From: Halorubrum ruber
GTDB lineage: Archaea; Halobacteriota; Halobacteria; Halobacteriales; Haloferacaceae
NCBI RefSeq assembly: GCF_018228765.1
Contig: NZ_CP073695.1
Location: 1,302,001 to 1,366,000 of the forward strand
Reading direction: 5' to 3'
Length of the DNA: 64,000 nt
The notes beneath the pieces are model-generated. The model was not told the origin of the DNA. It searched no databases and saw nothing but the letters and a program-made list of their open reading frames with translations. Every line of letters starts with the position of its first letter. The stretch's first letter is position 1. The position numbers and the translations under genes are program-made. This document shows positions 8,804 through 50,224 of this stretch, piece by piece.

Positions 8804-9071
8804 GGTATTTAAATATCGACGAGCGGCTGCGACGATCGCATATAAATGGACGATGCGGTGGCGCGTGCCGACGAGCGCCCGGAGGGCGCGAGTCGCACGC
8901 GCGAGGGAGTCGGCCGACCGAAGGGAGGCCGACGAGGCTGGGGAGGTGTGAGGCTGCGGTGCGGGGCGGGACTCAAAGGGGCAGTCGCGAGGCGGGCGCA
9001 GGCGACGCAAGCACCACAGGAACGAGCGCAGCGAGTGACGAGGAGCGCAGCGAGCGTGCGCCCGCCTCGCG
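8804..9071 (+). repeat. Dispersed structured element, copy A (candidate non-coding RNA)
   Basis: One of four related copies in this window. Two TATA-like boxes (TATTTAAATA ending at 8815; TATAAAT at 8841-8847) precede a core starting GGTGGCGCGTGCC (8857). Three hairpins can be drawn. Stem I is GCGCGTGC/GCACGCGC, enclosing GCGCCC-GGA-GGGCGC. Stem II is GTCGGCC/GGCCGAC. Stem III is a perfect 15-bp pairing of 8986-9000 with 9057-9071 (CGCGAGGCGGGCGCA with its complement). Between stems II and III is a nearly invariant strand, GAGGCTGGGGAGG then GGGACTCAAAGGGG. No credible protein is encoded. A transcript reading rightward is inferred, not shown. Confidence 0.75.
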
Positions 9072-9310
9072 GCTGGGGCTTTGGAGGTGTTCGTCGTCGA
9101 TCCGCCAGCAACTATTTATAAATGAGCGGCTGGGGCTTTGGAGGTGTTCGTCGTCGATCCGTCAGCAACTATTTATAAACGAGCGGCTGGGGCTTTGGAG
9201 GTGTTCGCCGCCGATCTGCGGACAGATGTTTATAAATGAGCGGCTGGGGCTTTGGAGGTGTCTCCCGTCGCTCCGTCAGCAATCAGTTATAAACAAACGG
9301 CTGAGGCCTT
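9071..9310 (+). repeat. 57-bp tandem repeat array A (four units plus a partial)
   Basis: Units begin with GGCTGGGGCTTTGG at 9071, 9128, 9185 and 9242, and a decayed fifth at 9299 (GGCTGAGGCC), so the period is exactly 57 bp. Units 1-3 end in TTTATAAA or TTTATAAAT, and unit 4 in a weaker GTTATAAAC. Units 1 and 2 are nearly identical; units 3 and 4 differ in the middle. The first unit overlaps the last base of stem III of element copy A. The repeats are contiguous with no spacers, so this is not a CRISPR array. Confidence 0.9.
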
Positions 9311-22289: not shown

Positions 22290-22657
22290 GGAAACCGGGG
22301 AGTTGCTGTCGGCTATTTATAAACGGTCGACCGCGTTGCGCTGACGACCTCCAAAGCCCCAGCCGCGACGGCTCGCGCGCCTTGCTGTGCTCCTCGCTCA
22401 GTCGCTCGCGCTCCCTCGCTGCGGTGCTTGCTGCGGCGTGCTTCGCCCTCGCGGCTGCCCCTTTGAGTCCCGCCCCGCACCGCTCCGCACAGCACCTCAC
22501 GCCTCCCCAACCTCGTCAGTCGCCTCCGCTTCGCTCCGGCGACTGACTCCCTCGCGGGCTGGCTCGCGGCCTCCGCTTCGCTCCGGCCGCTCGCAGGCGC
22601 GCCATCGCCGACTATTTATAAGCGGCCGTCGCCGCCGCTGGCGACTATTTAAATACC
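22290..22657 (-). repeat. Dispersed structured element, copy B
   Basis: This copy reads leftward. Two TATA-like boxes (TATTTAAATA at 22646-22655 and TATAAAT at 22614-22620) have the same 25-bp gap as in copy A. The core starts near 22605. Stem II is GTCAGTCGCC/GGCGACTGAC, different in sequence from copy A yet fully paired. Stem III is shorter: 22361-22368 (AGCCGCGA) pairs with 22449-22456 and extends with one mismatch. The conserved GGGACTCAAAGGGG strand is present. One tail unit containing CGTTTATAAATAG follows, with no tandem array. The core codes for nothing recognisable. Confidence 0.75.
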
Positions 22658-40524: not shown

Positions 40525-40810
40525 AATTTTTCCTTCGGTGGCGCGTGCCTGCGAGGCCGCTCTGCGGCCGAGCAGCACGCGCGAGGGAGTCAGTCGCCGG
40601 AGCGAAGCGACGGCGACTGACGAGGTTGGGGAGGCGTGAGGCTGCGGTTGCGGCGCGGGGGCGGGGGCGGGACTCGAAGGGGCGGCCACGAGGCCCCCGT
40701 AGGCGACGTAAGCACCACAGGAACGAGCGAAGCGAGTGACGAGGAGCGCAGCGAGCGTACGGGGGCCTCGTGGCCGGGGCTTCGCCGGTGTTCGTCGTCG
40801 TCCTGTCAGT
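40525..40810 (+). repeat. Dispersed structured element, copy C
   Basis: This copy lacks a clear TATA box (only AATTTTT at 40526-40531) but has a complete core starting GGTGGCGCGTGCC (40538). Stem I encloses GGCCG/CGGCC. Stem II is a perfect 11 bp (GTCAGTCGCCG/CGGCGACTGAC). Stem III is a perfect 19 bp pairing 40683-40701 with 40758-40776, and its sequence (GGCCACGAGGCCCCCGTA) is quite unlike copy A's. That difference with pairing kept is compensatory. Tail unit: GCCGGGGCTTCGCCGGTG, decayed and without TTTATAAA. No gene lies within. Confidence 0.75.
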
Positions 40811-47379: not shown

Positions 47380-47550
47380 GAATCGACGTACGCGAGGGGC
47401 GCTCAAATGGCCGTCGGAATGCGCGGGCGTTCCCGGGGCGTCGGAACGCGCGACGGTGCCCGAGGGGTCGGAACACGCGACGGTGCCCGAACCCGGGGCG
47501 GGAGCGCCGGCGCGCGGGGCTTATGTCCCGCCGCGGAGAACGCCCTCCCG

Positions 47551-48435
47551 ATGGCTCCCGCCGAGGACGACATCTCGATCGACGAAAAGCGCGTGTACGC
47601 GGGCAGCACCGGCCGCACCGACGCCTACGTCGCGACCGGGGCCGGGATCGTCCGCGTCTCGCTGTCGGCCGACAAGATCGGCGCGTTCGACATGGTTGCG
47701 CGCGACGCGGCCCGCGACGTCGCGGTCCTCGCGTGCGGCGAGGGGACGGCTGATCTCGTCGCCGCCGCGACCCCAGACGGGCTCTCGGTCGCCGCGGTCG
47801 GCGACGACCCCGACTTCGAGCCGGTCGACGACGAGCCGGCGGTCGCGGTCGGCGTCGCGGGCGGTCGCGACGGCGTGATCGTCGCGCGAGAGGACGGCGC
47901 GGTCGAGCACGTCGAGTTCGAAGAAAGCGGGACAGCGGTCGCGTCGACGGCGCGGCTCGGCTCGGTCGCGGACCCGCGCGCGGTCGACGGCGCGCTCGTC
48001 GCGGGTGCGGACGGGGTCTTTCGGGTCGATGCGGGGAGACTCACCGACGTCGGCCTCGACGATGCGCGCGACGTAGCCGGGTCCGGGATGCCCCTCGCCG
48101 CGACCGGTGCGGGGCTCTACTGGCTCGGGAACGGCTGGATGACGGCCCGCGAGGGCGCCGCGGACGCGGTCGCGGCCGACGGCGACGGCCACGCGATGGC
48201 GGTCGTCGGCGGTGATCTGTTTGTTCACTCGGGTGCGGGCGAGTGGGATGATGAGACGTGGGCGGTTGCTGATTTGCCCGTGGACGAGACGGCGGTGGCG
48301 CTCGGTTACGGGCCCGGCGTCTCCGTCGCAGTCACGGACGCCGGTACGCTCTGCGTCGACGCCGGCGACGGCTGGCGCCACCAAGTGGTCGGCGTCCGCG
48401 ACGTGGCGGGCGTGGCGCTCGTGGTCGTGGAATGA
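47551..48435 (+). CDS. Haloarchaeal beta-propeller protein (HVO_0234-like)
   Basis: A 294-aa protein with repeated blade-like strands (for example RVYAGSTGRTDAYVATGAGI, DGVIVAREDGAVEHVEF, GALVAGADGVFRVDAGRL). No signal peptide is seen, so it is likely cytoplasmic. The ATG at 47551 (MAPAEDDISID) fits the family start. The region just upstream carries two imperfect copies of GTCGGAACACGCGACGG. A propeller usually serves as a protein-interaction scaffold; the partner is unknown. Confidence 0.78.
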   Translation: MAPAEDDISIDEKRVYAGSTGRTDAYVATGAGIVRVSLSADKIGAFDMVARDAARDVAVLACGEGTADLVAAATPDGLSVAAVGDDPDFEPVDDEPAVAVGVAGGRDGVIVAREDGAVEHVEFEESGTAVASTARLGSVADPRAVDGALVAGADGVFRVDAGRLTDVGLDDARDVAGSGMPLAATGAGLYWLGNGWMTAREGAADAVAADGDGHAMAVVGGDLFVHSGAGEWDDETWAVADLPVDETAVALGYGPGVSVAVTDAGTLCVDAGDGWRHQVVGVRDVAGVALVVVE

Positions 48436-48469
48436 GTTGGAGATACTGTGTGGAGCGCCCCGAAATCTC

Positions 48470-48868
48470 GATCGTTCGCTTATAAATCATCGATAGCGGA
48501 TCGGCGGCGACCGCCTCTGATGTCTCGGCTGCTGGTTTATAAATCGCGGATAGCAGATCTGCGGTGAACACCACCGGAGCCCGGCTGATAGTTTATAAGT
48601 AGTCGGCTGCGGATCGACGGCGACTAACTCCAAAGCCCCGGCTGATAGTTTATAAGTAGTCGGCTGCGGATCGACGGCGACTAACTCCAAAGCCCCGGCT
48701 GATAGTTTATAAGTAGTCGGCTGCGGATCGACGGCGACTAACTCCAAAGCCCCCGGCTGATAGTTTATAAGTAGTCGGCTGCGGATCGACGGCGACTAAC
48801 TCCAAAGCCCCGGCTGATAGTTTATAAGTAGTCGGCTGCGGATCGACGGCGACTAACTCCAAAGCCCC
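48470..48868 (-). repeat. 57-bp tandem repeat array D (about seven units)
   Basis: Five near-identical units begin with GGCTGATAGTTTATAAG at 48583, 48640, 48697, 48755 and 48812 (period 57, 58 once because of an added C), followed by the element core. Two diverged units lie further left (starting about 48527 and 48470). Read on the minus strand, the units match those of array A (GGGGCTTTGGAG ... GATCCG ... TTATAAA). Near-identity of the five suggests recent amplification. Confidence 0.9.
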
Positions 48869-49204
48869 GGCCGTGAGGCGGGCGCACGCTCGCTGCGCTC
48901 CTCAGTCGCTCACTCCGTTCGCTCCCTGCGGTGCTTGCGTCGCCTGCGCCCGCCGCACGGCCGCCCCTTTGAGTCCCGCCCCGCACCACCGGAAGACGGT
49001 CCTGCTCGCTCACTCCGTTCGCTGCGCGGGCTGCGACTTCCGTGCTCCCGCTCGCTTCGCTCGCGGGAACGCAACCGCACCTCACGCCTCCCCAGCCTCG
49101 TCGCTCGCGCTTAAAAGCGCTCGCGACTCCCTCGCGCGTGCTGACTCGCGGCTGCCGAGGGCGGCCGCTCGCAGGCACGCGCCACCGCCTCGAACATTTA
49201 TAAA
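48863..49204 (-). repeat. Dispersed structured element, copy D
   Basis: Reads leftward from a TATA-like TTTATAAA at 49197-49204; the core starts near 49186, 14 bp away as in copies A and B. Stem I has GCGCGTGC/GCACGCGC. Stem II is GTCGC/GCGAC with an inner GCGCTT/AAGCGC. Stem III pairs 48869-48886 with 48945-48962 (17 of 18 bases). The region between GTGAGG and the conserved GGGACTCAAAGGGG is about 90 nt longer than in the other copies, so this copy carries an insertion in a variable loop. Confidence 0.75.
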
Positions 49205-49234: not shown

Positions 49235-50224
49235 TTACGGGCTCGGCAGGTCGATCGGCTCGCCGTCGGCGTAGACGGTCGGATTTCGGATGATGCCGTC
49301 GAGGTGGAGCGGCGCGTCCGTCTCGCCGCCGATGCCGGCGTTGTCGCCGATCGCGATGTGGACGGTGCCGCCCGCCTTCTCGTCTAAGAGGACCGAGCCG
49401 ACGAGCTCCTCGACGCCGCCGTTGGTCCCGATGCCGAGTTCCGCGAGGTTGTACGCCGCGTCGCCGACCTCCTCGGCGGCCGCCTCCACGTCGGCCCGGA
49501 TCTCGTCGTCGCCGATCTCGGTCACGAACCCGTCCTCGACCTCGAACGCGAGTTCTTGGCCGTCGTCGAGCAGGCCGTGGGGCATCATCGTCCCGTCGAC
49601 GACGAAGGTCCCGGTCGCGGTCTCGGGCGCGACGAACACCTCGCCTGCGGGGAGGTTCGAGAAGTCGCCCGGCTCGCGGACCATCCCGGTGTCGGCGAGC
49701 CACTCGCGGTCGCCGATCCCGAACGTGATGTCTGTGCCGGCGGGCGCGGTGACCCGGACCTCGTCCGCGTCGGCGACCTGATCGAGCACGTCGTCGCAGG
49801 CGGCGTCGATGGCGGCGTAGTCGGCGTCGAGCCCGGTCGTGAACACGTCCTCGGTGATCCCTGGGAGCGTCGCGCCGCGTGCGCCGGCGTCGCAGGCCGC
49901 GCCGCGGGCGCGGGTGTGGCTCAGGCTCTTCGTCGTGGGCGCAAGGAAGACGTCCGCCTCTCGCATCGCGGCCGCGACCGGCGCCGGCGGCTCCGTCCCG
50001 TGCTGCCCGGCCGGCGGGTACCGCAGGACCGTCGCGTCGTCGGTGACGGCGCACGCGGCCGCGTAGAGCGCCTCGCCGATCGGCTCGCGCTCGTCGTCGG
50101 TGACCACGACGACCGACTCGTCGGGGGCGACGTTCAGACACTGTTCGACCGCGGTCGCCGCGGCGTCGGAGAGGTCGGCTGGCATGTCCGCGCCTCCGTC
50201 CGCCCGGGCGTTAGGCCTTGCCAT
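49235..50224 (-). CDS. M29-family-like aminopeptidase
   Basis: A 329-aa protein similar to the thermophilic M29 aminopeptidase (AmpS/PepS) group. The N-terminal VEQCLNVAPDESVVVVTDDE, the middle TKSLSHTRARGAACDAGARG, and the C-terminal NLAELGIGTNGGVEELVGSVLLDEKAGGTVHIAIG (in parts: NLAELGIGTNGG, LLDEKAGGTVHIAIGDN) contain conserved metal-ligand Glu and His. ATG 50224 is used because a TATA-like TAAATAATT is centred about 33 bp upstream; ATG 50185 (MPADLSD) is the alternative. Peptide turnover in the cytoplasm is likely. Confidence 0.82.
   Translation of the reverse strand: MARPNARADGGADMPADLSDAAATAVEQCLNVAPDESVVVVTDDEREPIGEALYAAACAVTDDATVLRYPPAGQHGTEPPAPVAAAMREADVFLAPTTKSLSHTRARGAACDAGARGATLPGITEDVFTTGLDADYAAIDAACDDVLDQVADADEVRVTAPAGTDITFGIGDREWLADTGMVREPGDFSNLPAGEVFVAPETATGTFVVDGTMMPHGLLDDGQELAFEVEDGFVTEIGDDEIRADVEAAAEEVGDAAYNLAELGIGTNGGVEELVGSVLLDEKAGGTVHIAIGDNAGIGGETDAPLHLDGIIRNPTVYADGEPIDLPSP

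Follow-up and report, generated by a model that had tools for sequence, protein, structure and literature searches.

A 57-bp tandem array at the 5′ edge of a high-copy intergenic hairpin element in Halorubrum

The window, that is, the whole stretch of 64,000 nucleotides of Halorubrum ruber DNA that was analysed, is located on a contig of 3,021,820 bp. It contains four elements, A, B, C, and D, with tandem arrays of a 57-bp unit beside A and D. Element D and its array lie between two genes, the second of which converges on the element. The features, in window coordinates, are as follows.

8968–9084, minus strand: 5′ hairpin domain of element A
9069–9307, minus strand: array A, about four 57-bp units (TRF, direct reading)
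22351–22471, plus strand: 5′ hairpin domain of element B, with one unit upstream
40535–40642, minus strand: 3′ domain of element C
40669–40785, minus strand: 5′ hairpin domain of element C, with one unit
47551–48435, plus strand: flanking gene, 294 aa, which served for the synteny test
48467–48579, plus strand: two diverged, older units of the 57-bp type at the distal end of array D (direct reading)
48580–48871, plus strand: array D, five 57-bp units (TRF, direct reading, unit comparison)
48859–48977, plus strand: 5′ hairpin domain of element D, made up of the CCAAAGCCCC arm, a perfect stem, a variable loop, and the GCCCCTTTGAGTCCC arm
48985–49078, plus strand: extra module of the element’s long form (from the spacing of conserved blocks)
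49079–49188, plus strand: 3′ domain of element D, in the order CCTCCCCAGCCTCG, hairpin, CTCCCTCGCGCGTGC, hairpin, GGCACGCGCCACCGC
49197–49203, strand unassigned: TATA-like box just beyond the 3′ end of element D (from the sequence)
49235–50224, minus strand: flanking gene, 329 aa, with relatives annotated as aminopeptidase, converging on element D

TRF describes array D with a period of 57, 5.1 copies, 99% matches, and a score of 575. By direct reading the units start at 48580, 48637, 48695, 48752, and 48809, giving spacings of 57, 58, 57, and 57; an extra C in one junction is the sole difference among the five units, every one of which contains TTTATAA. The two methods bear out the first-pass annotation of this DNA, which had described five nearly identical 57-bp units with one extra C. 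The TRF score and the 150 or more related elements that the genome contains rule out a chance arrangement. The same annotation had placed one diverged unit on each side of the array. The two diverged units exist (56 and 57 bp, 63–64% against the reference copy, ungapped), but both are upstream, at the distal end. A separate 27-bp repeat of 2.9 copies (84%, TRF) is found at 47412–47490, just upstream of the gene preceding element D.

Array A has 4.2 copies at 83% (TRF), and the identity between D and A units has a mean of 0.68 and a maximum of 0.77. The two arrays are on opposite strands and have the same position and orientation with respect to their elements, as had been noticed earlier, and this placement is general: at 30 of 30 array loci, some of them overlapping, the same core follows immediately 3′ of the array and shares its sense. 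As in a minisatellite or VNTR, the unit is tens of bp long, the copies stand head-to-tail, and the number of units at the D site differs between species.

The last unit of array D continues into the hairpin, where the unit end CTCCAAAGCCCC pairs with GCCCCTTTGAG as the outer arm. The 5′ hairpin domain measures about 120–130 bp, and a second domain behind it holds two further hairpins; the conserved-block spacing is 121 in element D versus about 33–46 in most copies. A CCC/CCC internal loop is strictly kept in 221 of 226 elements, a count confined to elements with at least 9 of 14 arm positions paired and, for this genome, to the 71 of at least 150 copies that were read. In being scattered between genes, forming stem-loops, and including a tandem module of variable copy number, the element matches BOX-like composite repeats. 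In Halorubrum, its edge holds a TATA-like box whose distance from the base of the hairpin is fixed. This box starts 47 bases before the end of AAAGCCCC (position −47) in 53 of the 71 own elements; 8 others have one close by, making 61 of 71 with any box. Any TATA-like box is present in 75 of 155 elements of other Halorubrum genomes, compared with 1.6% of 52-bp stretches drawn at random from the window. Past the 3′ end, another TATA-like box follows CACCGC at a distance of no more than 40 bp; this holds for 36 of the 56 own elements and 69 of the 119 others.

Tandem multiplication of this edge, to between 1 and 8 units and mostly with a 57-bp period, has taken place independently at numerous loci and in various species. 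The 71 own elements examined have one (16 elements), two (20), three (16), four (9), five (6), six (1), or eight units (3), so that 55 of them have 2–8. Unit identity is 0.745 within arrays and 0.646 between arrays, the largest value in 2000 permutations being 0.679, and the nearest unit belongs to the same array in 81 of 184 cases (1.5% expected). The units of array D are 0.97 identical to one another and at most 0.82 to any unit outside, and a tree of 200 units from this genome groups them to the exclusion of all others. Together with the variation in unit number across species, these data uphold the earlier claim of recent local amplification at D, and local tandem amplification of the arrays is supported. 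Array D is a true recent minisatellite expansion, and the interest lies in its host element. The first-pass annotation had also spoken of independent expansion at two loci; the independence is supported, and the restriction to two does not hold, with 2–8 units at most own elements. A unit phylogeny had been suggested as a way to see whether the units of A and D intermix. Those of D are unmixed, while those of A are not a single group; of the 35 arrays having at least three units, only 2 are exclusive groups, which, with the split of the A units, indicates that the resolution of the tree is low.

The spacing is 57 bp in 119 of 129 own cases and in 198 of 244 overall, with other spacings of 45–69 bp. 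A constraint on unit length, formerly argued from the common period of the two arrays, is weakened by these other lengths. Because they occur, common descent of the unit with homology-driven duplication suffices for the shared period. Slippage or unequal exchange between adjacent units is the candidate source of new units, and the period would then be inherited from the ancestral unit. Arrays across the genus, those at five loci among them, also include boxless ATACG-type units of 51 or 54 bp and longer units of 63–69 bp.

Of the 46 spacings other than 57 bp (45–69 bp), 34 are divisible by 3, which we count against the explanation preferred below, and two reverse frames are each open in 138 of 190 own units. 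That the repeats encode a repetitive peptide is nevertheless barely credible. The two frames are equally open, substitutions are equal across the three phases (p = 0.32), 22 of 63 arrays have no open reverse frame, the block spacings of the element are not multiples of 3, and the extra C in array D shifts the frame. A coding role for the units was rejected on the first three of these grounds.

The element is spread over Halobacteriales chromosomes and is most numerous in Halorubrum. Its own genome has at least 150 copies, about one per 20 kb: all 150 scored candidates match R1, a covariance model of the 5′ hairpin, and 71 matching stretches came from the initial sequence search alone. R1 matches 51 of 52 Halorubrum genomes; at most 66 candidates were scored per genome and 1 to 66 found, the upper counts being lower bounds. 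Among the matches listed from an exact 20-base scan (80 of 120), all are from Halorubrum except the metagenome archaeon A07HR67. In the class, the 5′ hairpin was found in 280 of 391 genomes (E ≤ 1e-6, 8 candidates scored per genome), and in a sample of the phylum 49 of 392 genomes match at 1e-8, every one in the order of the window. Outside the genus, 69 matches in 60 stretches of eight genomes keep the same plan. The outer helix, CAAAG/CTTTG in Halorubrum, is GAAAG/CTTTC in 45 and GGAAG/CTTCC in 17 of the 67 out-genus matches in which the anchors were found, a paired change. The TATA-bearing edge was not seen in these 67 matches. Four loci of other genera carry the 5′ hairpin in inverted pairs whose members lie close together, with CCCACCC...GGGTGGG between them in some cases.

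Searches of Rfam gave no match to the element at the gathering score; the window yields only a tRNA, and at element D no match is better than E 0.79. Nor was an account of the element family found in the literature searched, mostly open-access papers. Tandem repetition itself is ordinary, and the host element family is apparently undescribed in that literature.

At the D site, 30 loci were read from 50 matching genomes. The left neighbour gene is present in 27, and the element was detected in 20, in the same orientation and in one case shifted by about 1 kb. Six of these loci have 5, 5, 3, 2, 2, and 2 units, and the remaining element-bearing loci have one or none recognisable. Seven of the 30 have a compact junction of 23–99 bp without the element; of the rest, two end at contig borders and one has lost synteny. 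It follows from these loci that the element is old at the D site and that its unit number is changing. At the C site, the element is present in 14 of 30 loci read, and in 12 of the 14 loci at which the neighbour is kept. Both flanks of 19 of the 67 own elements processed could be aligned with G024, 800 kb of a relative. Six of the 19 sites are occupied, in the same orientation, and 13 are without the element by pattern, one of them with array-like remnants. The only exact junction read has a 4-base overlap, which fits deletion as well as insertion. Similarity is no greater between orthologous elements than between paralogs, an observation that is indicative only, since at least 3 of the 29 sequences (D_G024, D_G036, and C_G010) are miscut.

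In three multi-contig Halorubrum genomes, the matches fall on one contig in 58 of 58, 43 of 44, and 10 of 10 cases, counts that include a few palindromes scored on both strands. Phage records contain no match to the element, and plasmid records gave 10 and 4 partial matches of 72,556; virus or plasmid cargo was therefore rejected, the element being essentially absent from such records. Neighbouring genes, whose orientations come from a rough gene caller, are in tandem at 47, convergent at 22, and divergent at 10 of 79 elements (two more overlap a call), compared with 96, 32, and 51 of 179 background spacers. Convergent neighbours are thus commoner and divergent ones rarer than in the background, and the tandem contexts show no preference for gene orientation (25 vs. 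22).

These data bear on the proposal of a non-autonomous mobile element of the MITE or PATE type, served by a transposase in trans and carrying a minisatellite at its edge. A high, dispersed copy number, presence or absence between relatives (the 6 of 19 occupied sites in G024), and the excess at convergent gene ends, which the authors of a partially available study of BOX repeats take as a possible sign of mobile repeats (PMC3049150), would all be expected of such an element. We nonetheless consider this somewhat unlikely, since site and orientation at D are kept across species, the matches are restricted to the main chromosome, phage records are without it and plasmid records nearly so, and a clean empty site with a target duplication was not found among the sites compared, the ends having been compared with part of the transposons. 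Neither do the right ends of tnpB genes carry its blocks, which are absent from the 160 bp past the stop in the 20 of 21 genes read; an IS605/PATE origin was rejected accordingly. The genome has 21 TnpB-domain matches versus one Y1 transposase gene.

REP/BIME repeats go with a Y1-type transposase in the genome. Any link of the element to the single Y1 gene here would be putative. The element’s hairpin domain, at about 120–130 bp, does not fit REP/BIME palindromes of 20–40 bp, as given in the available part of PMC3733652. Own-genome pairs of elements less than 3 kb apart were also inspected: in 9 of 12 the array-bearing ends point toward one another, usually with one or a few chromosomal genes between them that differ from pair to pair, and one close pair has no called gene in between. 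A composite transposon was rejected, because despite this facing arrangement the enclosed genes differ. From their translations, read without a family search, we take the genes between facing pairs to include hisA-, msrA-, and cysS-like ones.

Restriction to the main chromosome, a roughly even spread of the 150 own positions with no clear clustering (chi-square p = 0.14), and blocks conserved across the order could also be accounted for by a site of chromosomal architecture or recombination, the hairpin being read by a putative host protein. This is distinctly improbable, as there is no strand polarity along the chromosome at the 150 positions (p = 0.16), sites are gained or lost between relatives, and no partner protein was identified. 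A role in replication or segregation polarity was set aside, there being neither strand bias nor clustering.

The hairpin arms show strong covariation. In the Halorubrum set (52 sequences) 174 of 1610 cells, and in the out-genus set (69 sequences) 484 of 2067, are changed on both sides, with 0 of 500 shuffles as high in either case; the out-genus alignment is biased toward the model, to which it was fitted. Such compensatory change in helices is what a structured RNA displays, and it is one of the grounds for a multicopy non-coding RNA gene, in which the hairpin-adjacent unit would be the promoter and the arrays promoter duplications. The conserved internal loops, the class-wide spread, and a TATA-like box 29 nt ahead of the conserved GAACACC block speak for it as well. 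The tolerance of wobble pairs expected in RNA helices is lacking. The Halorubrum stems contain 2639 Watson–Crick pairs, 34 C-A, and 14 G-U, so that G-U amounts to 14 of 2653 (0.5%), compared with 22 of 262 (8.4%) in the stems of 19 tRNAs from the same loci. On this strand C-A exceeds G-U (34 vs. 14, p = 0.0055), and outside Halorubrum the numbers are 20 and 14; strand choice by wobble pairs was therefore abandoned, no strand being called. The hairpins also flip, their interior being inverted in 6 of 209 copies, and the TATA-like box is absent outside Halorubrum. In view of these points, and of the lack of an Rfam family at the gathering score, we hold an RNA gene to be unlikely.

One-sided changes are almost absent in the stems. 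This scarcity, the rarity of G-U, and the inverted interiors lead us to read the upkeep of the arms as mainly a DNA-level process, probably with selection on the conserved loops; DNA-level arm correction fits better than an RNA gene. Homogenisation of arms and inversion of spacers through template switching have been described (PMC8604942, PMC8794818, both available in part), in parallel with what is seen in these hairpins, although the parts available concern other organisms and genes and no repeat family. The arms may thus stay complementary by DNA-level template switching between them. Some selection is needed as well, because the unpaired blocks and the CCC/CCC loop would not survive arm correction alone. 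An RNA or protein-binding role would supply it, a point that we count against the explanation that we prefer. That explanation, to which we give a probability of about 0.68, is that the array arose recently, when the 5′ edge of an intergenic hairpin element of high copy number was amplified locally in tandem, and that the arms of this element are maintained at the DNA level. We infer that the element behaves like BOX/REP-type repeats, which are interspersed and structured, and not like a classical RNA gene.

In archaea, a transcript start is expected at about the distance, 29 bases, that separates the start of the TATA-like box from GAACACC. This distance is a suggestive hint only of a transcription start, and each unit could act as a putative promoter starting near GAACACC. 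Outside Halorubrum the block is weakly kept as AAC, with no TATA-like box, so GAACACC may not be a start site. It is tempting, though tentative, to regard the units as putative promoters and the arrays as added promoter copies pointing into the element. Quite unlikely is the wider proposal of an undescribed, chromosome-bound element whose loop motifs would be read by a host factor and with which Halorubrum, through the evolving copy number of its TATA module, would tune transcription at hundreds of intergenic sites, inward or outward. Because matched loci differ naturally in having from 1 to 8 TATA-like boxes, the arrays lend themselves to the study of promoter dosage in archaea. Much of the structured intergenic DNA in this Halorubrum belongs to the family, and so large a set of hairpins allows arm correction and loop inversion to be counted. 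A further lesson is that a sequence can look like an RNA gene on covariation alone.

In its plan the element may be compared with the BOX repeats of Streptococcus pneumoniae, which, in the part of PMC3049150 available, are interspersed, intergenic stem-loop composites with variable tandem middle modules, comparable to the variable tandem units here, and are likewise over-represented between convergent genes. BOX is bacterial and has its tandem module between two end modules, whereas the Halorubrum array is outside the hairpin and bears an archaeal TATA-like box; the likeness to the boxA, boxB, and boxC family is one of architecture, by description. BrickBuilt, found in a MITE of Porphyromonas gingivalis (PMC4596501, available in part), is likewise a minisatellite within a dispersed intergenic repeat. 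Its unit is 23 bp, its copies number 19 in one genome, its ends are small inverted repeats, and it contains promoter elements demonstrated by assay; the Halorubrum unit is 57 bp, the copies number at least 150, and the promoter role is putative, from sequence. The element may work like BOX or BrickBuilt repeats, and any membership of either would be a similarity of plan only.

The PATE and SMR repeats of Haloquadratum walsbyi, described in a source available in part (PMC3119063), are, like the element, haloarchaeal and transposase-free, and number hundreds of palindromic copies. In PATEs the palindromes lie close to the termini and are related to the ends of IS605, in contrast to the blocks of the element, which are missing from the tnpB right ends here. 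Small repeats of the SMR type insert into palindromes of that species (PMC3119063). At five orthologs of the D site, other hairpin modules are inserted in the loops of the element, and these inserts recall the palindrome-targeting SMR repeats. A two-hairpin insert at the D site separates G035 from the otherwise nearly identical G031.
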